From Aureibaculum sp. 2308TA14-22 (lineage in GTDB: Bacteria; Bacteroidota; Bacteroidia; Flavobacteriales; Flavobacteriaceae): a stretch of 64,000 nucleotides of DNA. Below are positions 21,481-37,491 of the stretch, piece by piece. The notes beneath the pieces are model-generated. The model did no database searches, was not told the DNA's origin, and was given only the letters and a program-made list of their open reading frames with translations. The DNA lies in the NCBI RefSeq assembly GCF_040538665.1, contig NZ_JBEWXT010000001.1, forward strand, positions 3,126,501 to 3,190,500. Direction: 5' to 3'. Every line of letters starts with the position of its first letter. Position 1 is the stretch's first letter. A program made the translations under genes and the position numbers.

Positions 21481-22896
21481 TTATTGATTTACAGGTGTTG
21501 GGGTAAATATATCTGGTATTGGATTAGGAATATTCTCATTACCATTAATTTCATCCTGCGGATATAAAAGTCTTTGTGGGTTCTGTGTTGCAGAAGCCGT
21601 GTTTAAAGGAAAAGGTACAATTACATCACTATCTGATGCTCGCAATCTACGCACATCATTAAAGGGCATAAATGTTGTGAAACCTGTAACATAACGTTCT
21701 TCAATAATTTCTCTTAATACCGCTCTATCAACATCAATACCGTCAGTATTTTCCATACCTCCATTTTCAAAATCAGCCATTTCATATGCCTCATACTTGT
21801 AAGTATCAGTTGCATTAATAATATTAAAAGCGTTACCAGAATTTAAGTGTGCTCTTAGCTCATTTAATTTATCAATAGCATCTTGCGTATTACCACCTCT
21901 TAATAAACATTCTGCCCAAATTAGTAAATTTTCTTCGTAACTTACCAATTTCATTGGCGTTGTAGGATCATCGATACCGCCTGCTTGTTCTCCATCACCA
22001 TTAACGTAAGAGTACTGTCTGCGAGCGGTCTCATCTGTCTTAGCATTATTTCTGCCGTTAGCATTGGCTGGGTCAATTAAATCTCTATAAAAAGAACCTT
22101 CTCCGGTCATATCTCCAGCACGACTACTATTAACAAAGTTGTAAAGTATGTTACTGTTGCCATCAACTTCTCCTATTGGATTGTAAGCCATTGTACCTGA
22201 AGCACTATTTATACCATCAGCCACATAATTTAATGCTTGTGCATACTGTTTGGTTTGTAAATAGTAGCGGGCTTTTAACGTATTTGCTGCAGCTCTCCAT
22301 TTAGATTTACTTCCATTAAAATAGTTATCCTCATCGCCTACTGATGTAGTAGAATTATCTATTTTAGTTATCGCATTATCCAATAAAGTCTGCATAGCAG
22401 CATAAACATCTGCTTGTGCATCAAAAGTCGGGTCAGGTGAATTCAAACTTGGATCATCGGGTACAGCTGTAGAATAAGGCACATCTCCAAACAATGAAGC
22501 AGCAGTACCTACTGCCAATGCCTCATTAATATCTATTATTGCCATAAGCATATCTAGATTAGGAGAAACTCTTCTTATTTCTTTGTTTTGAACTAAAATA
22601 CCATTATAAATATGTCCCCAAGTTCCGTTAGTATCTCCTGGAGTATAGTCATAATTATAAATAGTTTGTTGCACTAAATTTAAGCCGATTAAGCCTCCTG
22701 TGTAATAACCTGACACTCTGGATAAATGACCTTGCTGTACTTGAGCATTTGCCAGTAAAGTTCCTTTTAATAGAAGCGTACCTGTAGGCACTTCTACTAA
22801 CTGATTTGGATTATCATTTACATCTAAATAATCATCGCATGCGGTTGCGGAGAATAGAAAAACAAATGATAATAAAATTCTATATGTTGTCTTCAT
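21481..22896 (-). CDS. susD: SusD/RagB family nutrient-binding outer-membrane lipoprotein
   Basis: Surface lipoprotein that caps the partner SusC channel and captures substrate. The N-terminus MKTTYRILLSFVFLFSATACDDYLDVNDNPNQ has a lipobox ending in cysteine 20 and the DxNxNP segment seen at the mature start of this SusD subgroup. Helical TPR-like regions follow, including KSKWRAAANTLKARYYLQTKQYAQALNYV near residue 194. The closing region EIIEERYVTGFTTFMPFNDVRRLRASDSDVIVPFPLN is typical of the RagB-like SusD_2 group. It lies 20 bases after susC. The substrate is not readable from the sequence. Confidence 0.93.
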   Translation of the reverse strand: MKTTYRILLSFVFLFSATACDDYLDVNDNPNQLVEVPTGTLLLKGTLLANAQVQQGHLSRVSGYYTGGLIGLNLVQQTIYNYDYTPGDTNGTWGHIYNGILVQNKEIRRVSPNLDMLMAIIDINEALAVGTAASLFGDVPYSTAVPDDPSLNSPDPTFDAQADVYAAMQTLLDNAITKIDNSTTSVGDEDNYFNGSKSKWRAAANTLKARYYLQTKQYAQALNYVADGINSASGTMAYNPIGEVDGNSNILYNFVNSSRAGDMTGEGSFYRDLIDPANANGRNNAKTDETARRQYSYVNGDGEQAGGIDDPTTPMKLVSYEENLLIWAECLLRGGNTQDAIDKLNELRAHLNSGNAFNIINATDTYKYEAYEMADFENGGMENTDGIDVDRAVLREIIEERYVTGFTTFMPFNDVRRLRASDSDVIVPFPLNTASATQNPQRLLYPQDEINGNENIPNPIPDIFTPTPVNQ

Positions 22897-22916
22897 GATT
22901 TCTTTTTTAAATTTTA

Positions 22917-25900
22917 TTAATAGTTAAACTTAATACCGAACGCATAAGTTCTGGCACCTGGATTAGAGAAATAATCTAATCCTTTTCCTCTACCTACACC
23001 AAATTGGTTAACGTCAGGATCTATACCTACCACATCTGTCCAAATTACTAAATTTCTACCAGAAGCAGTGAACTCAATAGATTGGAAACCTGTTGCTTTT
23101 TTAAAGCTCTCAGAATTTAACGTATAAGACAAAGAAAGTTCTCTAAAACGTGTCCAACTAGCATCATCAACAGCAAATTCATTTAATTTACCATCCCCAA
23201 AACCATAGAGCGTCCTGTAATAGTTCTCGTCCAATAGTACATTACCACCACCAAAATTACCTACATTACCCCTAACAGTAGTTCCAGCTGTGACTATGTC
23301 ACCATCATGATTTACTAAATCTTCAGTTAGCGTAATTGTATTCCCAACATCGGCATGTGTACCAAAATATGATGTAATAAATCGAGTACGTTGTGCCATG
23401 TCATTACCTTGACTGGTATCAAATAAAGCAGATAAACTTATATTTTTGTATGACAAGTCAAATTGTATGCCGCCTCTCCAATCAGGGTTTGGATCACCAA
23501 CTATAAGGTCACCACTTGTATCAACTTGAGGGAAACCATTGGCATCTAAAATCATATCTCCATTGGCATCACGAAGAGCACCTTGAGTCATTAAAATTCC
23601 TAATGGCTCTCCTTCTTTAGCTACTGAAATTATTGAACTTCCTGATGTGAAGTTGATAACGCCACCACCCTCTAGTTTGGAAACAACATTTTCATTTGTA
23701 CTAAAATTTGCACTAATTGATGCATTCCAATCTTCATTTTTTAAGAAGTTATACCTTGCCTCTACTTCAAAACCTTTATTTTCTATAGTTGCACCATTAC
23801 CATAAATATTATCAAAACCTAAAGAAGGCGGAATTGCTATAGTCAATAAAACATCTTCAGTCTTATTTGTGTAATAAGTGGTTGATAATGATACTCTATT
23901 TTTGAACAAACGGAAATCAAGACCAACTTCATATTCTGTTTTAATTTCGGGTTTTAAATTTGCATTACCCAAACGTTCATCAAACTGAAATCCTCCTCCA
24001 AAATCTTCTAGGGCAATCCCGTCAGAAAATGTAGAAAAAGAACCTACTTCAAAAACTGTTTGCTCTCTGTGTGCAATAGGTACATTTGCTACTTGTCCGT
24101 AAGCTAAACGCAACTTACCAAACGAAAGAGCGTCAGACTTTCCTATTGCATTGCTAAAGGTCCAGCCCAATTCAGCACTAGGATAAAAGAATCCGTTATT
24201 ATCTTTTGGTAATGTAGAATGCTTTTCAAAAGCTCCACCTAATTGTAAAATCAATTGATTTGCATAATCAAAATTAGCTGTTCCGTAAAAACGAATGTTT
24301 CTTCTTAATGTTCTTGTCGTTTCTGAAGAAATATTTTCTTTAGGAGCAATTTCTGCAGGATCTAAAGGGCTTCTAAAATTAGCAATAAAATTATCTGCAG
24401 TAGAATAGTTACGCTTACGTCTTCTATCGTTTAAACCAAAACCTAATACAATATTTGTATTTAACTTTTCTGTCAATTCATAATTAAAATTGGTCAATAA
24501 GTCACCATTAAATTCTTGATTGTTGATAGTTTCATCGTCAATTAATCCATATCTACGGGCAGAACCTGCTGTGTACCATGGAAAGAAATATACCCTGCTA
24601 TCTACATAAAAATCTACACCTCCTCTTAAAATAGTAGTGATATTATCGTTCCATTGATATTTCATCTCTCCTGTACCCACTAGTCTATTTACGTTTGCTG
24701 AACTTTCCTGTTCATTTATGGTCCAAAGCGGATTATTATAAATAGCGTTATCACTATTTCCTAAATATCTTCTATAAGAACGATGACGGAAAGGAGTAAC
24801 GGAACCTGAACTACTCACATAATTACCTTTATAATCCGTTATATCAAAGTCAGGAGCCGTTCTCAATAACCCTAAATACAAACCTGCAGTATTAGAGCCT
24901 TGTTGTGTTCTATTTGAGCCTGTATGGATATAGTTTGCCTTAATATTGGTCGTTAACTTTTTAGTTAAATTTGAAGTAGCATTTACAGTAAAGTTTGTCT
25001 TTTTATAATAACTACTTTTCACAATACCTTCTTGGCTTACATGTCCACCACTTAAAAAGAAAGTTCCTTTTTCATTACCACTACTCACCGTAAATCGGTT
25101 ATCATAAGTTATTCCTTGTTGAAATACTTTATCAAAGTTTCTATCGGTATAAACCTCTGTTGAATTTTTATCATCAATAGGATAAATAATATTGTCGGTA
25201 ACCAAAGATTCAAAGTATTGACCACCTGTATCTACAACATCAGCTGCTCCACTTCTATCCGCAATCCTATCACCCCAAGAAAATGCTGAAGTTGGGCTAT
25301 AATTTCCGTTTGTACCTTGCCCAAACGTTTTTTGTAACGGATGCTTATAAGCAATTTCATCAATAGAAATACCTGAAGAAAAAGTTACGTTTAAGCGACC
25401 TGCCTTACCTTTTTTGGTAGTAATTACAATTACACCATTTAAGGCTCTTGAACCATATAATGCTCCGGCAGAAGCTCCTTTAAATACTTGAAAAGACTCA
25501 ATATCATCTGGGTTTAAGTCATTTAAACGTGATTGTTGCGAAACTCCCGCAGAAGCATCACTATCACCAGAACCTGAAATATTATCATTATTTAACGGTA
25601 CACCATCAACAACAATTAAAGGTTGACTTGATCCGCCTAAAGAGCTAGTACCTCTAATTTGAATGTTAGATCCAGCACCTGGGTCACCAGAAGTTGCATT
25701 AATACTTACACCTGCAGCTTTACCAGCAATACCATCAATAATTTTATTTTCGACGGGTTGTACTAATTTATCTGCTTCAATTTTAGAATACGTAGAAGCC
25801 ATTTTATCTCGTTGTTCTACGAAACCAAGGGCAGTAACTACTACTTCATCCAAAGCTTGTGAATCTTCTTCCAATGTTACTGTAATAGAAGATTGATTGG

Positions 25901-26153
25901 CACTTACTGCAACTTCCTTTGTAACATACCCTAGAAAGCTAATTACTAGTGTAGCATTACCTTCAGGCACATCAACAGAAAAGTTTCCGTCAAAGTCAGT
26001 TGTAGTTCCGGTGGTTGTACCTTTAATAATAACGCTAGCACCTGGCAACGGGCCAGAAGCATCGTTTACGGTACCCGTTACGGTACGCTGTGCATACACA
26101 AAACTACTAGTTATCAGTATGGCAAACACAGAAAAAATCAATTTACGAATCAT
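22917..26153 (-). CDS. susC: SusC/RagA family TonB-linked outer-membrane transporter
   Basis: Outer-membrane active transporter energised by TonB. After a signal peptide ending in VYAQ, residues 22-110 form a carboxypeptidase-like regulatory domain (GTVNDASGPLPGASVIIKGT). The TonB-box and plug region then reads LDEVVVTALGFVEQRDKMA. The plug holds NIQIRGTSSLGGSSQPLIVVDGVPL, and the remaining residues form the 22-strand barrel ending in GARTYAFGIKFNY with a terminal aromatic. At 1078 residues it has normal length for the family. It is followed by susD and preceded 45 bases upstream by an M14 carboxypeptidase gene on the same strand. That suggests peptides rather than glycans as cargo, as in RagAB. 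Confidence 0.95.
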   Translation of the reverse strand: MIRKLIFSVFAILITSSFVYAQRTVTGTVNDASGPLPGASVIIKGTTTGTTTDFDGNFSVDVPEGNATLVISFLGYVTKEVAVSANQSSITVTLEEDSQALDEVVVTALGFVEQRDKMASTYSKIEADKLVQPVENKIIDGIAGKAAGVSINATSGDPGAGSNIQIRGTSSLGGSSQPLIVVDGVPLNNDNISGSGDSDASAGVSQQSRLNDLNPDDIESFQVFKGASAGALYGSRALNGVIVITTKKGKAGRLNVTFSSGISIDEIAYKHPLQKTFGQGTNGNYSPTSAFSWGDRIADRSGAADVVDTGGQYFESLVTDNIIYPIDDKNSTEVYTDRNFDKVFQQGITYDNRFTVSSGNEKGTFFLSGGHVSQEGIVKSSYYKKTNFTVNATSNLTKKLTTNIKANYIHTGSNRTQQGSNTAGLYLGLLRTAPDFDITDYKGNYVSSSGSVTPFRHRSYRRYLGNSDNAIYNNPLWTINEQESSANVNRLVGTGEMKYQWNDNITTILRGGVDFYVDSRVYFFPWYTAGSARRYGLIDDETINNQEFNGDLLTNFNYELTEKLNTNIVLGFGLNDRRRKRNYSTADNFIANFRSPLDPAEIAPKENISSETTRTLRRNIRFYGTANFDYANQLILQLGGAFEKHSTLPKDNNGFFYPSAELGWTFSNAIGKSDALSFGKLRLAYGQVANVPIAHREQTVFEVGSFSTFSDGIALEDFGGGFQFDERLGNANLKPEIKTEYEVGLDFRLFKNRVSLSTTYYTNKTEDVLLTIAIPPSLGFDNIYGNGATIENKGFEVEARYNFLKNEDWNASISANFSTNENVVSKLEGGGVINFTSGSSIISVAKEGEPLGILMTQGALRDANGDMILDANGFPQVDTSGDLIVGDPNPDWRGGIQFDLSYKNISLSALFDTSQGNDMAQRTRFITSYFGTHADVGNTITLTEDLVNHDGDIVTAGTTVRGNVGNFGGGNVLLDENYYRTLYGFGDGKLNEFAVDDASWTRFRELSLSYTLNSESFKKATGFQSIEFTASGRNLVIWTDVVGIDPDVNQFGVGRGKGLDYFSNPGARTYAFGIKFNY

Positions 26154-26198
26154 GTTTAATCGAGTTTAGTTAATAATTATTTTTGTTAGTTGTTTTAT

Positions 26199-27428
26199 TT
26201 ACTTTTTGTTAATTAATATTTTCATCATTTCTTTGGCTGAAACTTTACCTTTCATTTCAATAAATTTTCTTGGAGTATCATCTCCTATTTCATAAGTTAT
26301 CCCTACTGCATTTTGTCCATTTAAAAACCATCCTTTTGAAGTTGGTCTGTTGCTGTTAGCAGATGCTTCATTTACTTTATAGTTAGGTATTTTTTCTTCT
26401 AAAGCACTAAACCACTTTTCTTCAAAATTTGGAAGATTGGTACTCTCCCTTATAGTGTTAGTGTAAAAAACATCATACCAAGTAGAGTGGAAATCTAACC
26501 CTAATATTAATTTTGATTTATTCTTTTTAAGCGTTTTATTAATATGACTTACTACTTGTTTTATTTCGGGCTGATTATAAACGCCCCAATCCCTGTTCAA
26601 GTCAACACCACCCATATTATGCCTCCAATGCCCCATGTCCACACCATCAGGATTCATAATTGGAAAGGCTAAAATATGATATTTATTTAAAAACTCTTCA
26701 GACAGCTCATTTTTTTCTAAAAGTGTCGTCAAAAAACTTTGAAAAGCTAAATAACCTGTAACTTCAGGCGGATGTTGTCTGGTAATCAACACAATAAGAT
26801 CTTTATTCTTGGTTTCTCCTTTTGAAATTTCCAATACGGGTAAATTTCTATTTAGTCTTGATTTTCCTGCACTTTTAACCCTTACAAAATCTTCCTTCCC
26901 TTTCACAAGGTTAGTGTACCAATTTTTTACATCTGTAGAGGTATTGATTTCTTGAGCTGCAACTATCACAGGGCTTGTGGTTAAATTTAATTTTATAGTT
27001 ATTATAGTGTCTTGTTTAAAAACAGCAGTAGAATCTATAATATCCCAAGTATTATTTATTTTTAATTTAGGAATATACCTGTGTTTATATCCTTTTGGGT
27101 ATTTAAATTTAAAATAGAAAGGTTTAGAAGTAGTTGACCATGTTTTAAACGCATAATATGCACTATTATTTATAGGAGCGTTTTCAGGATGGATAATAAC
27201 CAAAGCTGTACTATCATTTTCCTGTTCAAAACCATTTAATCTAGCTCCATCAAATTCGTTGCTAGCATAAACATCAACATTAACTAATTTATAGGTTTTC
27301 TTAGTTTGATTAGCAATAGGTCTAGTCGTAGTATCAACAGGGTTAGAAAATTTAACTTTTTTAACACTGCTACAGCCTATAAATAGAAACAATAATGCAA
27401 CACCAATTACAGCTTTATTCGCAATCAT
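26199..27428 (-). CDS. M14 family zinc carboxypeptidase lipoprotein
   Basis: Predicted exported zinc peptidase removing C-terminal residues or cleaving cell-wall peptides. MIANKAVIGVALLFLFIGCSS is a lipoprotein signal with cysteine 19. The catalytic part starts near residue 165. TRQHPPEVTGYLAFQ supplies the HxxE zinc motif, NPDGVDMGHWRHNMGGVDLNRDWG the substrate-binding Asn-Arg motif, and GLDFHSTWYDVFYT the third zinc-binding histidine. ITYEIGDDTP supplies the likely catalytic glutamate. Residues 20-160 form a beta-rich N-terminal domain as in M14 proteins of Bacteroidetes. It is the first gene of a run with susC and susD. Confidence 0.9.
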   Translation of the reverse strand: MIANKAVIGVALLFLFIGCSSVKKVKFSNPVDTTTRPIANQTKKTYKLVNVDVYASNEFDGARLNGFEQENDSTALVIIHPENAPINNSAYYAFKTWSTTSKPFYFKFKYPKGYKHRYIPKLKINNTWDIIDSTAVFKQDTIITIKLNLTTSPVIVAAQEINTSTDVKNWYTNLVKGKEDFVRVKSAGKSRLNRNLPVLEISKGETKNKDLIVLITRQHPPEVTGYLAFQSFLTTLLEKNELSEEFLNKYHILAFPIMNPDGVDMGHWRHNMGGVDLNRDWGVYNQPEIKQVVSHINKTLKKNKSKLILGLDFHSTWYDVFYTNTIRESTNLPNFEEKWFSALEEKIPNYKVNEASANSNRPTSKGWFLNGQNAVGITYEIGDDTPRKFIEMKGKVSAKEMMKILINKK

Positions 27429-27689: not shown

Positions 27690-30185
27690 ATGAGGAAAAC
27701 AATAGTTGGTATTTTTATATCGTTTCTTCTTTTGAGTTTTGCTCTGAAAAAAGAAACCTCATGGATTAGGATAAACCAATTGGGCTATTTACCACAATCC
27801 GTTAAAGTAGCGGTATTGGGCTCTAAAGGAACTATTGAAGTAAAAACTTTTTCATTGGTTGATGCAAAAACCGATAAAACCATTTTTATATCTGATAAAA
27901 TTACGGCCAAAGAAGCATTTGGACCGTTCACAACTTCGTTCCGCTTGAATTTTTCCGACTTAAAGGCAAAAGGGGAATATTACATTCTTGCAGGAAACGT
28001 CAAATCGCCCATATTTAAAATTGATGATAATGTCTATGATGGTACGGCAGATTTCCTATTAAAATACATGAGGCAACAGCGTTGTGGCTATAATCCGTAT
28101 TTAACGGATTCCTGTCATTTAGATGATGGTTATATTGTTTACAATCCCGGTAAAAACGGTCAACGAATTGATGTTACCGGTGGTTGGCACGATGCCTCGG
28201 ATTATTTGCAATACACGGCAACCTCAGCCAATGCGGTATTTCAATTGCTTATGTCGTATCGTGAAAACCCTAAGTCTTTTACCGATGCACATCAAGCCAA
28301 TGGTTTGCCAGGACCAAATGGCATTCCCGATATTATTGATGAAGCTAAATTTGGTATGGATTGGCTGTTGAAAATGAATCCATCACCAACCGAATTTTAC
28401 AATCAAATTGCAGATGATAGGGACCATGCAGGATACAGATTACCTAATCATGATAGTGTGGTTTATCATCCTGAATTAAAAGGTCGCCCCGTTTATTTGG
28501 CCTCATCTAAACCGCAAGGCTATAAAAAATATAAAAACCGCTCAACGGGCTTGGCTTCTACAACGGGTAAATATGCCTCGGCTTTTGCCTTAGGTGCGAA
28601 TATATTAAAGCCTTTTTTTCCTGATTATGTAAAAAAATTACCCAATAGAGCCGTGGATGCCTTTAAATACGGTCAAAAATATCCCGGCGTAAGCCAAACC
28701 GCTCCTGGCGGTGCTCCCTATTTTTATGAAGAAGAAAACTGGCATGATGATATGGAACTTGCAGCGGCCTCATTATATAAACTTACGGGTAAAGACAATT
28801 ATAAAAAAAACGCCCTGAATTATGCCACAAAAGAAAAAATATCTCCATGGATCGGTAAGGATACCGCCAGGCATTATCAATACTATCCTTTTTTAAATGC
28901 TGGGCATTTTGAATTGGCAACAGCAATCGAAAATAACGAAAAAGAAATCGTGGTCAATTATTACAAAAAAGGATTGGAATTGCTTCAAGAGCGAGGTGAA
29001 AACAATCCGTTTTTAGTGGGTACACCTTTTATTTGGTGCTCCAACAATTTTGTAACCGCTGCGGTTACGCAATGTAAATTGTATAGAGAATTGACGAATG
29101 ACAACCAGTATTTAGAAATGGAAGCTGCTTTACGCGATTGGCTTTTTGGCTGTAACCCATGGGGCACAAGTATGATTGTTGGATTGCCCGAAGATGGCGA
29201 CAATCCCGAAGACCCGCATTCTTCGTTAAACCACTTGTATAATTACCAAACTGATGGTGGATTGGTAGATGGTCCTGTTTATGGCTCAATTTTTAATAAC
29301 CTAATCGGATTAAAGTTGCACAATGTGGATGCCCATGCCGAATTCCAATCGGATTATGTGGTTTATCACGATGATGTAGGCGATTATTCCACCAACGAAC
29401 CCACCATGGACGGTACTGCAAGTTTAGTGTATTATCTATCCAGTATGGAAAATGAAAGTAGAAGAATCGGTCATAAAAAAAGTGAACTCGTTTATGATAA
29501 AACCAGGGCAATTATCCGTGGCGATGTTAATACTAAAAATATAAACTTGGTTTTTACAGGCCATGAATTTGCAGATGGGGCCGAGAATATTTTAAATACG
29601 TTAAAAAAACACAATATTAAAGCCTCGTTTTTCTTGACCGGCGATTTTTATAGAAACCCCAACTTTAAAGGTTTTATAAAACAAGCCGTAGCTGATGGAC
29701 ATTATCTCGGAGCTCATTCCGACAAGCATTTGTTGTATAACGATTGGACAAAGGAAAAAAAGCGTTTAGTTACTTACAAGGAATTTAAAAATGACTTGAA
29801 TGCAAACTATCAAGAAATGGAAAAGTTCGGTGTAAAAAAGGAAGATACGCCCTACTTTTTGCCTCCTTATGAATGGAATGATGAATATATAACCCAATGG
29901 GCACACAGGCAAAAATTAACACTGATAAATTATACGCCTGGTACACTTTCACATGCTGATTATACTACACCGGATGATAAAAATTATAAAGATACCCGAG
30001 TAATTTATAATTCGATTCTAAATCATGAAGCAGATAAAAACCTCAACGGATTTATGCTCTTGAGCCATATTGGTACAGATACTAAAAGGACTGATAAATT
30101 CTATTTAAAATTGGAAACGTTAATTCAAGAATTAGATAAAAGAGGTTATGATTTTGTTTCATTAAAAACCTTGCTAGAAAAATAA
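27690..30185 (+). CDS. Glycoside hydrolase family 9 fused to a C-terminal polysaccharide deacetylase (CE4-like) domain
   Basis: Exported two-domain carbohydrate-active protein of 831 residues. Residues 1-20 form a signal peptide. Residues 23-110 form the N-terminal Ig-like domain of GH9 (WIRINQLGYLPQSVKVAVL). The GH9 catalytic barrel spans about 115-590, with GGWHDASDYLQYT supplying the catalytic base aspartates D168 and D171. CNPWGTSM and PHSSLNH follow, and STNEPTMDGTASLVYYL supplies the acid E570. Residues 610-828 resemble a NodB deacetylase: KKHNIKASFFLTGDF, the metal motif HSDKH (H676, H680), FLPPYEWN and LLSHIG (H793). The usual TFDDG motif is changed to FTGHEFADG (624-630). Substrate is unknown. 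GH9 includes cellulases and glucosaminidases, and the CE4 domain plus the next gene favour an amino sugar polymer. Confidence 0.88.
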   Translation: MRKTIVGIFISFLLLSFALKKETSWIRINQLGYLPQSVKVAVLGSKGTIEVKTFSLVDAKTDKTIFISDKITAKEAFGPFTTSFRLNFSDLKAKGEYYILAGNVKSPIFKIDDNVYDGTADFLLKYMRQQRCGYNPYLTDSCHLDDGYIVYNPGKNGQRIDVTGGWHDASDYLQYTATSANAVFQLLMSYRENPKSFTDAHQANGLPGPNGIPDIIDEAKFGMDWLLKMNPSPTEFYNQIADDRDHAGYRLPNHDSVVYHPELKGRPVYLASSKPQGYKKYKNRSTGLASTTGKYASAFALGANILKPFFPDYVKKLPNRAVDAFKYGQKYPGVSQTAPGGAPYFYEEENWHDDMELAAASLYKLTGKDNYKKNALNYATKEKISPWIGKDTARHYQYYPFLNAGHFELATAIENNEKEIVVNYYKKGLELLQERGENNPFLVGTPFIWCSNNFVTAAVTQCKLYRELTNDNQYLEMEAALRDWLFGCNPWGTSMIVGLPEDGDNPEDPHSSLNHLYNYQTDGGLVDGPVYGSIFNNLIGLKLHNVDAHAEFQSDYVVYHDDVGDYSTNEPTMDGTASLVYYLSSMENESRRIGHKKSELVYDKTRAIIRGDVNTKNINLVFTGHEFADGAENILNTLKKHNIKASFFLTGDFYRNPNFKGFIKQAVADGHYLGAHSDKHLLYNDWTKEKKRLVTYKEFKNDLNANYQEMEKFGVKKEDTPYFLPPYEWNDEYITQWAHRQKLTLINYTPGTLSHADYTTPDDKNYKDTRVIYNSILNHEADKNLNGFMLLSHIGTDTKRTDKFYLKLETLIQELDKRGYDFVSLKTLLEK

Positions 30186-30191
30186 GGAAAC

Positions 30192-31382
30192 ATGGCCGCC
30201 ACTACAATATCAAAAAACAGAATCCTTAGCATTGATATTATCAGGGCATTAACTATGTTTTTTATGATTTTTGTAAACGATTTATGGTCCATAACCCATG
30301 TTCCTAAATGGTTATTACACACCAAAACAAATGAAGATGGCATGGGTTTTTCCGACGTTATTTTTCCATTATTTCTATTTATTGTTGGGTTATCCATCCC
30401 TCTAGCTATTAATATAAGAAAAAAGAAAAACGACAATACTTTTCAAATTTTCAAACACATCTTAGAAAGAACTATTGCCTTGCTTGTTATGGGATTTTTT
30501 ATGGTCAATTACGAGTATATTAATAATGATGCTTTACCCTTTTCAAAATATATTTGGCAACTCTTAATGGCAACGGCCATACTGCTCATTTGGTTGCATT
30601 ATAAACCTATAAAAAAAATAAAAAAGCATCATACTATAGCTTTAAAATCACTTGGAGCTTTAATCTTAATCTATCTGGCTTTTATCTATAAAGGTGGGAC
30701 TTTAGAAGAACTCACTTGGATGAAACCACATTGGTGGGGTATTTTAGGATTAATTGGTTGGGCCTATTTTTTAAATGTAATAGTGTATTTAGCATTGGGT
30801 AGAAATTTAACAGTTCTTGGATCCATCTTTTTATTATTTAACTTTTTGAATGTTCAAGAGTTTGGCTTTTTTGAAAGCTTGCCCGCTTTTAAAATTGTAA
30901 TTAGTGCTTCAAACTATGCACTAGTTATGGCGGGTGTTTTTTGTACTTCTTTGTTTCTAAAATTTAAAGAAAAGGGTAAAATAGACCAATTCTTGGTGAT
31001 AATAAGTATTTTAGGGCTACTACTTATTAGCTATGGTTTTTTAATAAGACCCTCATTTATCATATCGAAAAACCTTGCCACACCATCATGGACAAGCATT
31101 TGCATAGGTATTGGCTATTTAACGTATGTGGTCTTATTTATTATTATCGATAAGTTGGGGTATTATAAATGGGCTAAACTCATTAAGCCTGCGGGTACCA
31201 GTACGCTAACCTGTTACTTAATGCCTTATTTTATTTATCCATTAATAGCTCTAACGGCATTTAAATTGCCTGAATTTTTTACCGCTGGAAGTATTGGTAT
31301 TGTAAAGTCATTACTTTTTTCTTTATTAATTATTCTTTTTGTTGGTTGGTTAGAGAAGTATAAGGTTAGGTTGAAAATATGA
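30192..31382 (+). CDS. NagX/HGSNAT-like membrane acyltransferase (DUF5009)
   Basis: Polytopic inner-membrane protein with about ten hydrophobic helices. The N-terminal block RILSIDIIRALTMFFMIFVNDLW, followed by a histidine in WLLHTKTN (H43) and DVIFPLFLFIVGLSIPLAI, matches the catalytic region of heparan-alpha-glucosaminide N-acetyltransferase relatives. This family includes the bacterial NagX proteins linked to N-acetylglucosamine use. Members are thought to acetylate glucosamine residues across the membrane, or to transport amino sugars. It starts 6 bases after the GH9-CE4 gene and is surely co-transcribed. Its stop codon lies 2 bases from the stop of the convergent D-aminoacylase gene, with no terminator between. 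Confidence 0.85.
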   Translation: MAATTISKNRILSIDIIRALTMFFMIFVNDLWSITHVPKWLLHTKTNEDGMGFSDVIFPLFLFIVGLSIPLAINIRKKKNDNTFQIFKHILERTIALLVMGFFMVNYEYINNDALPFSKYIWQLLMATAILLIWLHYKPIKKIKKHHTIALKSLGALILIYLAFIYKGGTLEELTWMKPHWWGILGLIGWAYFLNVIVYLALGRNLTVLGSIFLLFNFLNVQEFGFFESLPAFKIVISASNYALVMAGVFCTSLFLKFKEKGKIDQFLVIISILGLLLISYGFLIRPSFIISKNLATPSWTSICIGIGYLTYVVLFIIIDKLGYYKWAKLIKPAGTSTLTCYLMPYFIYPLIALTAFKLPEFFTAGSIGIVKSLLFSLLIILFVGWLEKYKVRLKI

Positions 31383-31384
31383 GA

Positions 31385-33007
31385 TCATTTTTTATAACCC
31401 ATTCCCCTTAATACCTTACCACCTCTATTTTCTGTAAGCATGGCGTCGTTAATTGTCAATACTCCATTAACAAATACATATTTTATCCCTTCGGAATAAT
31501 GATGCGGATCAGTATAAATAGACTTATCAATAACAGTTTCAGAATCAAAAATAGTAATGTCAGCATAATTACCGACTTTTAGTCTTCCTCTTTTGGATAA
31601 TCCGAGTCTATCGGCAGGCATGGAAGTCATTTTTTTGATGGCGGTTGGTAAGTCCAACACATTTAATTCGCGTACATAATGTCCCAAAACCCTAGGAAAA
31701 GTACCGTACCAACGTGGGTGCGGCCAACCTTCATCATCGGTATAGGTTAATCGGCCATCGGAGCCGATCATAGTTTGCGGGTGCTGCATAATACGTTGAA
31801 TGTCTTTTTCGTCCATAGCATGATAAATAGCCGTTCCGCCACCTGTTAATTGAGCTTTCAGCACCAATAATGCTCCGTTTTTGGCATTGGGTTCTAGATT
31901 TTCGCGTTCTGCCCAGAATTTTAGTGTTTTTCCTGAAAGGGTTTCGTCCCATGGGGTTTTTGCCAATTGAACTCTGTTTAAATCGCCTCCACCTCTGTCG
32001 TTCAGAATATTGAATTCTATTCCCGCCAAAATGCTGTCTTTCAGCTTCTTGTTTTCGGTTCTTTTAATGAATTCTTTTTGACCTCCCGCCCTGGCCCAAG
32101 CGGGAATCAATACCGAAATGGACGTATAACTGGCGTTGTACGGATATTGATCTATCATTACGTCAATGCCCAATGCTCTGGCGGAATCTACCATTTTTAA
32201 GGTTTTTTTGCTAAAGCCCCAAACGGGTTTTCCTATGGCTTTATGATGTGTTAAAATTATTGGGATGTTCGCTTTTTCGCCAATTTGAATAGCTTCGGAT
32301 ACGCCTTCCAACAATCCCAGCCCTTCTTCACGCAAATGCGAAGTATAAATGCCTCCCTTTTCGGATGCCGATTTGGACATCTCAATAACCTCATCAACTT
32401 TTGAAAATGCTCCGGGCAGGTATTTTAATCCCGTTGAAATTCCAAAAGCACCATCGTTCATGGCTTGAGATACCATTGTTTTCATTTTTGATAGTTCTTC
32501 AACGGTTGGCTCTCTGTTGTCCATTTGCATTACCGCTTTTCGTATCTGGTTATGGCCAACCAAGTAGGCAACATTCATACCCAAAGGTAACTCTGCAATG
32601 GAATCTAAGCGGCTCCCAAATGGCCAAAAGCCACCACCGTCTGGACCACCCAAAGAAGTTGTGATACCTTGTGTAAGGGCACTTTTAGCATCAGGGTGTT
32701 TAAAAATAGGGTCTAAATGGGCGTGCATATCGATAAATCCGGGAGCAACAATCAATCCAGAGACATCAATAACGGAATCGGCATTTTTAGGGTCTATGTT
32801 GCCGATAAAAGCGATGGTGTCCGCATTGATGCCTATATCCATAATCTTAGAAGGTGTTCCGTCTCCAACATTTACGTTACCGTTCTTTAGGACAATTTGA
32901 TAATGTTCAGAATTATTTTTAGTACAAGATACGGTGAACATTATAACAAAAAACAAGCTTAAAAAGGAGAGTTTTGTACCGGAAAAATTAGAAGGTAGTA
33001 TTTTCAT
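31385..33007 (-). CDS. N-acyl-D-amino-acid deacylase (amidohydrolase) lipoprotein
   Basis: Zinc amidohydrolase of the D-aminoacylase group. I start it at the ATG at 33007, giving MKILPSNFSGTKLSFLSLFFVIMFTVSCTKN, a lipoprotein signal. The longer frame adds twelve residues without a signal. APGFIDMHAHLDPI near residue 76 is the HxH metal motif. IYTSHLREEG carries a metal histidine, IPIILTHHKAIGKP another, and MIGSDGRLTY the conserved aspartate. The tail KKMTSMPADRLGLSKRGRLKVGNYADITIFD is the usual closing block. Members remove acyl groups from D-amino acids or N-acylated D-amino-acid esters. It is convergent with the acyltransferase gene. Confidence 0.88.
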   Translation of the reverse strand: MKILPSNFSGTKLSFLSLFFVIMFTVSCTKNNSEHYQIVLKNGNVNVGDGTPSKIMDIGINADTIAFIGNIDPKNADSVIDVSGLIVAPGFIDMHAHLDPIFKHPDAKSALTQGITTSLGGPDGGGFWPFGSRLDSIAELPLGMNVAYLVGHNQIRKAVMQMDNREPTVEELSKMKTMVSQAMNDGAFGISTGLKYLPGAFSKVDEVIEMSKSASEKGGIYTSHLREEGLGLLEGVSEAIQIGEKANIPIILTHHKAIGKPVWGFSKKTLKMVDSARALGIDVMIDQYPYNASYTSISVLIPAWARAGGQKEFIKRTENKKLKDSILAGIEFNILNDRGGGDLNRVQLAKTPWDETLSGKTLKFWAERENLEPNAKNGALLVLKAQLTGGGTAIYHAMDEKDIQRIMQHPQTMIGSDGRLTYTDDEGWPHPRWYGTFPRVLGHYVRELNVLDLPTAIKKMTSMPADRLGLSKRGRLKVGNYADITIFDSETVIDKSIYTDPHHYSEGIKYVFVNGVLTINDAMLTENRGGKVLRGMGYKK

Positions 33008-33072
33008 AATCAGGATAATTGGTTTAAAAAATAAATATAACAATTTAATGTTTAGGGAATCAAAATATTTTT

Positions 33073-35646: not shown

Positions 35647-37491
35647 TTATTCCACCGTAACCGACTTCGCTAAATTCCGTGGTTGATCTACATTACAATT
35701 ACGCATTACCGCAATATGATATGATAACAATTGTAACGGGATTGTAGTCAATAATGGCGAAAATGCTTCTTCAGAATCTGGTATTTCAATCACATGATCT
35801 GCAATTTCTTTTACCGTAGTATCACCTTCAGTAACCACAGCAATAATTTTACCACTACGGGATTTTATTTCTTGAATGTTACTTACAACTTTTTCGTAGT
35901 GTCCTTTGCTCGTAGCAATTACAATTACGGGCATTCTATCGTCAATCAAAGCAATAGGTCCGTGTTTCATCTCTGCCGCAGGGTAACCTTCTGCATGTAT
36001 GTAAGAGATTTCTTTTAATTTTAATGCTCCTTCTAAGGCAACTGGAAAGTTGTAACCTCTACCTAAATATAAACAGTTAGTAGATAGTAAATATTCTTTG
36101 GCTATTTCTTTTACATAGTCATCTACCTGTAATAATCGTTCTACTTTATCTGGAATCAATTCCAGCTCTTGTAAATACAGTCTAAAATCTGAGCTAGACA
36201 TGGTTCCTTTTGCTCTTGCCAATCGCAAGGCAATTAAGGTCAATACTGTAATTTGTGTGGTAAATGCTTTCGTTGAAGCAACTCCAATTTCTGGACCTGC
36301 ATGAGTATAAGCACCAGCATGAGTTTCTCTAGCAATTGAAGATCCCACAACATTACAAACACCAAAGACAAAAGCTCCTTTTTCTTTAGCCAGTTTAATT
36401 GCCGCCAACGTATCAGCTGTTTCACCAGATTGTGAAATGGCTATCAATACATCTTTTTCAGATATTACCGGATTTCTATATCTGAATTCCGATGCGTACT
36501 CTACCTCAACAGGAATTCTAGCAAATTCTTCAAAAATATACTCGGCTACCAAACCTGCATGCCAAGATGTTCCACAAGCTACTATAATAATACGATTAGC
36601 ATTTAAGAACTTTTTCATATTATCTTCTACACCAGCCATTTTAATAATAGCTTCTTCTCTTAATAAACGTCCTCTATAGGTATCTGTTATTGCTCTAGGT
36701 TGTTCATAAATTTCTTTTAACATAAAATGCTCATAGCCACCTTTTTCTATTTGCTCAAGATTCATTTGTAATTCTTGAACATCCGCATCTACTAAAGAAT
36801 CATCATGTATTTTTCTAATTTTTACATCCTTGCCTACTCTTATAATCGCCATTTCTTCATCATCCAAATAAATAGCATCTTTAGTATATTCTATAAAAGG
36901 TGATGCATCTGAAGCAATAAAAAATTCTTCTTTATCCTTTCCAACACCAATAGCTATTGGGCTACCTAAACGGGCTACAACAATTTCATTTGGTTTTCTT
37001 TTATCAAAAACGGCAATGGCATAAGCTCCAACCACTTCATTTAAAGCAATTTGCACTGCTTTACCGAGCATTACGTCGTTTGTTTGCTGTACTTCTTCAA
37101 TTAGATTAACCAACACTTCGGTATCAGTATCACTATGAAAAGAGTAACCTCTGTTAATTAACTCTTTTTTAATAGTGTCATAGTTTTCTATTATTCCATT
37201 ATGTACAATAACTAAATTGCCTGATTTAGAAGTGTGAGGGTGAGAGTTTACATCATTAGGTACACCATGGGTCGCCCAACGTGTATGCCCAATGCCTAAT
37301 TGACCTTCTTTAGAAGTAACTTTTTCAATTAGGTCACTAACTTTACCTTTGGTTTTTGCCAAATTTATCTGATTACCGTCATAGAGTACAAGTCCTGCAC
37401 TATCGTAACCTCTATATTCCAAACGTTGTAAACCATTAATGATAATAGGATAAGCATCTCTGTACCCTATATAACCAGTAATTCCACACAT
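35647..37491 (-). CDS. glmS: Glutamine-fructose-6-phosphate transaminase (isomerizing)
   Basis: Makes glucosamine 6-phosphate for peptidoglycan and lipopolysaccharide. The protein begins MCGITGYIG, where the first cysteine after Met is the glutaminase nucleophile. HTRWATHGVPNDVNSHPH and the HNGIIENYD motif complete the glutaminase domain. Two SIS domains follow, with CGTSWHAGLVAEYIFE, AISQSGETADTLAA and the C-terminal PRNLAKSVTVE typical of GlmS. At 614 residues it has family length. It lies 14 bases after the DUF4270 gene on the same strand, which suggests a shared transcript with a cell-envelope theme. Confidence 0.97.
   Translation of the reverse strand: MCGITGYIGYRDAYPIIINGLQRLEYRGYDSAGLVLYDGNQINLAKTKGKVSDLIEKVTSKEGQLGIGHTRWATHGVPNDVNSHPHTSKSGNLVIVHNGIIENYDTIKKELINRGYSFHSDTDTEVLVNLIEEVQQTNDVMLGKAVQIALNEVVGAYAIAVFDKRKPNEIVVARLGSPIAIGVGKDKEEFFIASDASPFIEYTKDAIYLDDEEMAIIRVGKDVKIRKIHDDSLVDADVQELQMNLEQIEKGGYEHFMLKEIYEQPRAITDTYRGRLLREEAIIKMAGVEDNMKKFLNANRIIIVACGTSWHAGLVAEYIFEEFARIPVEVEYASEFRYRNPVISEKDVLIAISQSGETADTLAAIKLAKEKGAFVFGVCNVVGSSIARETHAGAYTHAGPEIGVASTKAFTTQITVLTLIALRLARAKGTMSSSDFRLYLQELELIPDKVERLLQVDDYVKEIAKEYLLSTNCLYLGRGYNFPVALEGALKLKEISYIHAEGYPAAEMKHGPIALIDDRMPVIVIATSKGHYEKVVSNIQEIKSRSGKIIAVVTEGDTTVKEIADHVIEIPDSEEAFSPLLTTIPLQLLSYHIAVMRNCNVDQPRNLAKSVTVE

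Follow-up and report, generated by a model that had tools for sequence, protein, structure and literature searches.

In a 64,000-nucleotide stretch of DNA from Aureibaculum sp. 2308TA14-22 (the window), a gene encoding an 831-amino-acid (aa) protein fuses a glycoside hydrolase family 9 (GH9) domain to a NodB-like carbohydrate esterase family 4 (CE4) domain, and is followed after 6 bp, on the same strand, by a gene encoding a 396-aa membrane protein related to the acyltransferases NagX and HGSNAT. From the observed gene anatomy, conserved residues, predicted folds and recurrent neighbors, we propose that these genes specify an exported module that would deacetylate, cleave and re-acetylate an amino-sugar glycan, with peptidoglycan-derived chains as the most likely substrate, a proposal that we regard as evenly poised between right and wrong. 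Such fusions, or adjacent GH9 and CE4 genes, are widespread among Bacteroidota, and gene neighborhoods in a minority of relatives, from several lineages, support the amino-sugar reading. An earlier, sequence-only reading of this DNA had noted the two genes and interpreted them as an amino-sugar polymer system; our analysis confirmed the observation and partly supported the interpretation.

Relatives of the fusion and their gene neighborhoods

Among 296 sampled Bacteroidota genomes, 116 had a match of any kind to the fusion at 1e-3. An open, full-length copy was present in 19 of them (the window genome included) and one more copy was broken by a stop; the fusion is therefore not a product of chance. 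Other genomes of this sample encode GH9 with a separate CE4 gene nearby. The sequence-only reading had advised a genome-wide search of this kind, with attention to neighbors. Our main set for counting neighbors consisted of the best 80 matches of a contig scan, 52 of which hold fusions of >780 aa. These loci include Gelidibacter, Arenibacter, Flagellimonas, Pontibacter, Sphingobacterium, Chitinophaga, Pedobacter and Bacteroides fragilis (L143), as well as metagenome-assembled genomes (MAGs) of Ignavibacteria, Caldithrix and Thermoanaerobaculia. A second set comprised 40 loci, with L081/L109 and L061/L159 taken as the same loci across sets because their contigs are equally long. The controls, chosen without matching for kinship, were 40 neighborhoods around other GH9 genes.

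MurQ, NamZ, MurK, AnmK or AmpG was encoded within ~10 kb in 14 of the 80 loci and in 4 of the 40 loci of the second set (one such locus is counted in both), compared to 0 of the 40 controls (Fisher p 0.002 for 14/80 versus 0/40). Leaving out two of the loci that had supplied queries gave 12/78 versus 0/40 (Fisher p 0.005). NagX or NagA lay nearby in 12/80, 4/40, and 0/40, respectively. Both comparisons support the earlier claim of an amino-sugar system. The 14 peptidoglycan-salvage loci are not independent and fall, by our own grouping, into nine genera or MAG lineages. On a GH9 tree (built with FastTree; judged by local supports, 41 of its 120 inner branches are open) whose rows were 115 of the clade and 8 control GH9, solved GH9 sequences not being among them, this context requires at least nine changes. 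MurQ is common, scoring above cut-off in 205 of the 296 genomes, so the signal lies in closeness rather than presence. The neighbor counts are lower bounds because 34 of the 80 loci have <8 kb on a side, and because no GH9 open reading frame (ORF) was obtained for L116 and only a split one for L174.

Query-based labels lean towards the loci from which the query proteins were taken (L062, L077, L081, L100, L131, L138, L144 and the window), but clustering and a Pfam tally do not. Clustering without chosen queries recovered MurQ in 12 loci, GHL10 in 11, metallophosphatase in 10, NamZ in 9 and NagA in 6, each versus 0 in the controls. Families of 336, 202 and 294 aa recurred in 10, 9 and 8 loci, again versus 0 controls, which seems to reflect a gene order conserved in a single lineage. 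For the Pfam tally, 110 of the 180 operon partners were chosen by random draw and 10 of these removed by hand, leaving 100; the control partners covered were 78 of 174, hand-picked from the first 110. NamZ, GH3, GHL10, SSF and DUF5009 were found 3 times each among the operon partners, and KaiC (10), GNAT (9), glycosyltransferases (7) and polysaccharide deacetylase (5) among the control partners.

Individual loci illustrate these tallies. In Gelidibacter (L102, L106, L109), the fusion gene is preceded by SusD or SusCD, NamZ, an SSS symporter, MurQ and a hexosaminidase-like GH3, with related sets of neighbors in Pontibacter (L119, L126, L131), Sphingobacterium (L172, L176), Chitinophaga (L161), Proteiniphilum (L144) and others. 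Family models run on example neighbors placed MurQ and NagA above cut-off and confirmed the N and C domains of NamZ, SSF, GHL10 and an N-acetylmuramoyl-L-alanine amidase domain. Metallophosphatase/PQQ-propeller and GHL10 proteins were seen in L062, L119, L131, L172, L176 and other loci, several of them with peptidoglycan-salvage genes. Other Bacteroidota GH9 genes (L180-L201, among the controls) have as partners glycosyltransferases, GNAT proteins, a KaiC-type ATPase and polysaccharide deacetylase, which suggests a different GH9 group with an exopolysaccharide role.

Because the fusion often lies beside genes that recycle cell-wall or chitin amino sugars, its probable target is amino-sugar chains rather than cellulose. 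The presence of NamZ, MurQ and AmpG near some relatives favors peptidoglycan fragments as its substrate. Several observations from the neighborhoods weigh against this view. Neither salvage nor NagX/NagA context was seen in 58 of the 80 loci, though at least 33 have a truncated flank. Some clusters were less specific, namely the SSS symporter (13 loci versus 5 controls), GH3 (8 versus 5) and SusC (20 versus 5), and polysaccharide deacetylases also partner other GH9 genes (5/78). In the window genome itself, no MurQ or NamZ lies near the fusion, the one MurQ and three NamZ being elsewhere, and no NagA scored above cut-off. Bacteroidota may use a deacetylase other than NagA; given that alternative, the missing NagA was not used as a sign against N-acetylglucosamine (GlcNAc) catabolism.

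The same neighborhoods bear on a rather unlikely alternative, that the fusion acts on chitin or chitosan oligosaccharides by the same logic of deacetylation, cleavage and re-acetylation, its peptidoglycan-type neighbors reflecting common GlcNAc catabolism. GH18 genes adjoin L082, L102, L106 and L118, and NagX relatives adjoin GH18 in L233, L237 and L242. Ahead of the fusion in L100 stand a YdjC family gene and genes related to those for the ROK kinase, MFS and SIS proteins in L138. The GH18 neighbors, together with 2 GH18 and 8 GH20 matches above cut-off in the window genome, keep chitin among the possible substrates. However, NamZ and MurQ act on N-acetylmuramic acid (MurNAc), not on chitin, and they were found in 9 and 12 loci versus 4 for the GH18 cluster, although clustering may split the diverse GH18 proteins. 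The sequence-only reading had named chitosan-like or heparan-like oligosaccharides. Its amino-sugar glycan is supported, with chitin or chitosan as the main rival, but peptidoglycan, which it did not name, is best supported, and nothing in these data points to heparan.

The GH9 domain

The window fusion scored above the Pfam cut-offs for CelD_N, Glyco_hydro_9 and Polysacc_deac_1. In an alignment of 44 full-length fusions, the two Asp and one Glu that mark GH9 (D168, D171 and E570) were identical in 44/44, as was H510, bearing out the earlier description of a GH9 with both acid sites joined to a NodB-like deacetylase. Position 512, which is Arg in the endoglucanases 3x17 and J30, is Ala or Ser in 41/44. 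The earlier argument from GH9 exo-glucosaminidases was not supported: the profile of the clade scored endoglucanase 3x17 at 168 bits versus 55 and 53 bits for the exo-glucosaminidases 6gdt and 3h7l, and the predicted GH9 fold matched 3x17 at Z 36.3 versus 28.9-29.8 for exo-glucosaminidases. Membership in the exo-glucosaminidase subgroup (PBPRA0520, VC0615, VP2484) was thus rejected by profile and fold. Since endoglucanases are nearest, exo-glucosaminidases distant and the endoglucanase Arg replaced in 41/44, the clade cannot, by sequence, be classed with the standard cellulases or with the known glucosaminidases.

The nearest solved GH9 relatives, the endoglucanases 3x17, CelD and J30 and the xyloglucanase BoGH9A, place the GH9 domain closest to endoglucanases in both sequence and fold, which tells against an amino-sugar substrate. 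This affinity would suit a plant-glucan enzyme, a GH9 endoglucanase or xyloglucanase joined to a CE4 acetyl-xylan esterase. So would a passage of PMC5238381 in which GH9 and CE4 genes of one metagenomic clone are read as possibly cellulose and xylan enzymes, the GH9 of that clone not being assigned to the present clade. We consider a plant-glucan enzyme very unlikely: the clade has lost the Arg present in 3x17 and J30, its CE4 part most resembles the PdaA type, and the 25 commonest of 121 partner Pfam families include no plant-wall family except the broad GH3, NamZ, GHL10 and DUF5009 being among the commonest. GH9 profiles would label genes of this clade cellulases, also in gut species such as B. 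fragilis. Should the encoded enzymes act on amino sugars instead, metagenomic counts of cellulose degradation would be too high, and GH9 would gain a new class of substrate.

The CE4 domain

The NodB half scored above the profile cut-off and has a predicted NodB fold. Its best solved relatives by profile were 2j13 (57 bits), PdaA (52), 7y51 (43) and PgdA entries (42), and in sequence it is closest to PdaA-type proteins. Chitin deacetylase 2iw0 reached 30 bits, which speaks against the chitin alternative, though 7y51, level with the PgdA entry 5o6y, is titled predicted xylanase/chitin deacetylase. The nearest fold was 4m1b (Z 25.7, root mean square deviation 1.6, 197 aligned), followed by 4l1g, the BA3943 pseudoenzyme entries and PdaA, which were tied. 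The domain thus resembles the peptidoglycan deacetylases PdaA and PgdA, with PdaA and 2j13 closest and PgdA lower, but differs from them in its altered motifs 1 and 3 and in its fusion to GH9.

Across the 44 fusions, the metal-type His pair (H676 and H680), the motif-5 His (H793), E728 and D757 are invariant, position 629 always holds Asp or Glu, and an inserted step in motif 1 leaves an acid at 625 or 626 in all 44. In the same alignment, the canonical motif-1 Asp pair and motif-3 Arg were not found at their aligned positions: the place of the Asp pair holds Thr or Ser and then Gly or Ala (Asp-Asn in PdaA), and that of the Arg holds L, I, M or V in 44/44. These substitutions make deacetylase activity uncertain and to that extent weaken our proposal. 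They would fit a NodB domain that has become a pseudoenzyme, binding sugar for the GH9 domain and no longer acting as an esterase; structures of BA3943, which carry the title CE4 pseudoenzyme, match its fold (Z 22.5-24.2) as closely as those of PgdA and PdaA do. The invariant His and acidic residues and the acid retained at 625 or 626 make this unlikely, as does the stand-alone CE4 gene kept beside GH9 in genomes with split genes. On these residues, we regard deacetylase activity of the NodB domain as plausible.

The acyltransferase and its linkage to GH9 genes

No Pfam family matched the 396-aa protein at 1e-3; it fell below the DUF5009 cut-off, above which its relatives in L105 and L138 score. 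The NCBIfam NagX model (NF046061) gave a weak match (42.5 bits, 4e-11), short of the equivalog cut-off of 480. Solved HGSNAT matched at 1.6e-5 (phmmer against PDB), and HGSNAT structures were the 15 best Foldseek PDB matches of the predicted fold (AlphaFold2, 10 sequences, mean pLDDT 81). D15 and R18 of a DxxR motif and H43 were identical in 10/10 aligned proteins. H43 aligned where NagX and HGSNAT have their catalytic His, and is followed by a two-residue insertion; the assignment rests on this 10-protein alignment, as the phmmer alignment pairs the HGSNAT His with K45 instead of H43. By fold, DxxR and catalytic-type His, the protein belongs to the HGSNAT/NagX fold family (TmAT), in keeping with the membrane protein that the sequence-only reading had recognized 6 bp downstream. 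Passages of PMC9007349 name the catalytic residue of NagX/HGSNAT His297, draw on fitness data from five bacteria to implicate NagX in the use of glucosamine, and propose that it acetylates periplasmic glucosamine. With that NagX and human HGSNAT the window protein shares predicted fold, DxxR, catalytic-type His and a link to amino-sugar genes; it is unlike NagX in its score and in the insertion after H43, and glucosamine is its putative substrate.

A NagX gene directly adjoins the fusion or CE4 gene in 5 of the 80 loci (L101, where it is split over two ORFs, L103, L105, L115 and L170; gaps of 4-59 bp) and in L077 and L078 of the 40-locus set; tblastn at 1e-3 found NagX in 2 of the 40 loci L060-L099. 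The order in L138 is GH9, NagA, NagX. NagX lies 6-7 kb off on the opposite strand in L106 and L107, and at the contig end in L144. The pairing of a deacetylase with an N-acetyltransferase, to which the earlier reading had drawn attention, therefore recurs. Linkage in relatives, on which it had staked its case, was found in some and missing in most, including the closest: no NagX match (tblastn, 1e-3) lay beside L080, a same-genus fusion gene 83% identical to that of the window, and NagX as a fixed partner has to be given up. A NagX-type match at 1e-12 was present in 39 of the 296 genomes and was linked to a relative of the fusion only in the window genome and in G243, where it stands beside a GH9 fragment (41% identical). 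These two results count against our proposal. The acyltransferase is a recurrent but replaceable partner of GH9-CE4.

GH9 of the exo-glucosaminidase type occurred in 8 of the 296 genomes (one match partial). NagX-type genes were present in 6 of these 8 versus 16 of the 288 others (p 2e-6, not corrected for kinship). Such a GH9 adjoins NagX in only one of the eight, a further point on the opposing side. In L233, a NagX relative (44% identical) stands beside a GH9 that matches the exo-glucosaminidases 3h7l (411 bits) and 5dgq (392 bits), together with GH18; by sequence, this one clear case supports an acyltransferase that would handle glucosamine freed by a GH9. The three genes lie side by side at L233:2133-6271 and form a compact candidate chitosan-salvage operon.

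Proposed mechanism and known systems

The activity of each domain, the order of steps, the substrate and the location are, as we infer them, the following. In the periplasm, the NodB domain would strip the N-acetyl group from GlcNAc (or MurNAc) of a glycan fragment, and, with a glucosamine-type sugar thereby exposed, the fused, inverting GH9 would hydrolyze the adjoining beta-1,4 bond. The NagX-like protein in the inner membrane would turn the freed glucosamine into GlcNAc using cytoplasmic acetyl-CoA, and the re-acetylated GlcNAc would enter GlcNAc uptake and catabolism. Where uptake prefers GlcNAc, glucosamine made by CE4 and GH9 would need such re-acetylation. More tentatively, as a possibility that we lean against, the GH9 clade may have moved from cellulose to the bacterial cell wall, a PdaA-like CE4 making glucosamine within the GlcNAc-MurNAc chain, GH9 cutting there and NagX re-acetylating. 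To our knowledge, such an enzyme would be the first GH9 to act on peptidoglycan, and it would provide an alternative to NagZ. If our proposal is true, Bacteroidota gain a defined recycling route for peptidoglycan or chitin sugars with acetylation as a switch.

PgaB and PelA offer a parallel, in that one protein of an exopolysaccharide system deacetylates an amino-sugar polymer and cuts it, as proposed for the fusion; they differ in belonging to other GH families and in being biosynthetic rather than salvage proteins. According to passages of PMC6096475, the GH9 enzyme VC0615 fully digested the glucosamine (GlcN) dimer (GlcN)2 in 30 min, and digestion of (GlcNAc)2 was not detected in 1 h. A GH9 of this kind would depend on a deacetylase when it meets GlcNAc glycans, and the fusion would be explained in this way. 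The same passages report that VC0615 also cuts cello-oligomers, cellobiose more slowly than (GlcN)2, and this weighs on the other side. Like the exo-beta-D-glucosaminidases PBPRA0520 and VC0615 described there, the window fusion has CelD_N, a GH9 fold and the catalytic acids, and a clear homologue of theirs lies beside the NagX of L233; unlike them, it is distant in sequence and fold, falls in another subgroup and carries a CE4 part.

Relatives of MurK, MurQ, AmpG and NamZ beside some GH9-CE4 genes recall the salvage by murTKQ, AmpG and NamZ in Tannerella forsythia (PMC5790795, PMC7670621, PMC10465942), although the salvage passages of those papers name no GH9 or CE4 part. T. forsythia MurT was not used as a NagX relative, being distantly related in passages of PMC9007349 and a sodium symporter in those of PMC5790795. 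Among open-licence PMC papers, in the passages retrieved, none was found that places a GH9-CE4 fusion in amino-sugar salvage; GH9-CE4 as such led to one paper, PMC5238381.

Layout of the locus and flanking genes

The N-terminus of the fusion resembles a signal peptide, and the protein is probably exported (Table 1).

Table 1. Features of the GH9-CE4 fusion gene and the adjoining acyltransferase gene, in window positions
Feature	Position	Strand	Evidence
GH9-CE4 fusion gene, 831 aa	27690..30185	+	ORF, Pfam; predicted structure with mean pLDDT 91
Probable signal peptide, residues 1-21	27690..27752	+	Hydrophobic N-terminus, helix 2-17 in predicted structure
CelD_N Ig-like domain, residues 22-105	27753..28004	+	Pfam PF02927, E 8e-18
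GH9 catalytic domain, residues 116-583	28035..29438	+	Pfam PF00759 (Glyco_hydro_9), E 9e-72
GH9 acids D168 / D171 / E570	28191 / 28200 / 29397	+	Invariant in aligned fusions
NodB/CE4 deacetylase domain, residues 606-831	29505..30182	+	Pfam PF01522 (Polysacc_deac_1), residues 626-742, E 1.4e-12
CE4 altered motif 1 (residues 622-630); metal-type His H676 and H680	within 29505..30182	+	Motif columns of alignment
NagX/DUF5009/HGSNAT-like membrane acyltransferase, 396 aa	30192..31382	+	Weak NagX/HGSNAT matches and predicted HGSNAT fold
Catalytic-type His H43 of acyltransferase	30318-30320	+	10/10 aligned proteins

Divergent to the fusion, positions 21481-27428 (-) encode a SusC/SusD-like_2 pair and an M14 zinc carboxypeptidase. 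In the syntenic L080 of the same genus, the interval holds only the fusion and a 103-aa ORF. An amidohydrolase gene at 31385-33043 (-) converges on the NagX gene; its best NCBIfam match is NF006560 (212 of 340 bits), and the product is presumably D-aminoacylase-like. The M14 peptidase and the D-aminoacylase-like protein were dropped as partners, since they lay near 0/80 and 0/40 relatives. A few kilobases from the locus, at 35647-37491 (-), stands a GlmS-like gene (glucosamine-6-phosphate synthase, by eye), whose nearness is probably a coincidence because it belongs to a gene order common with L080.

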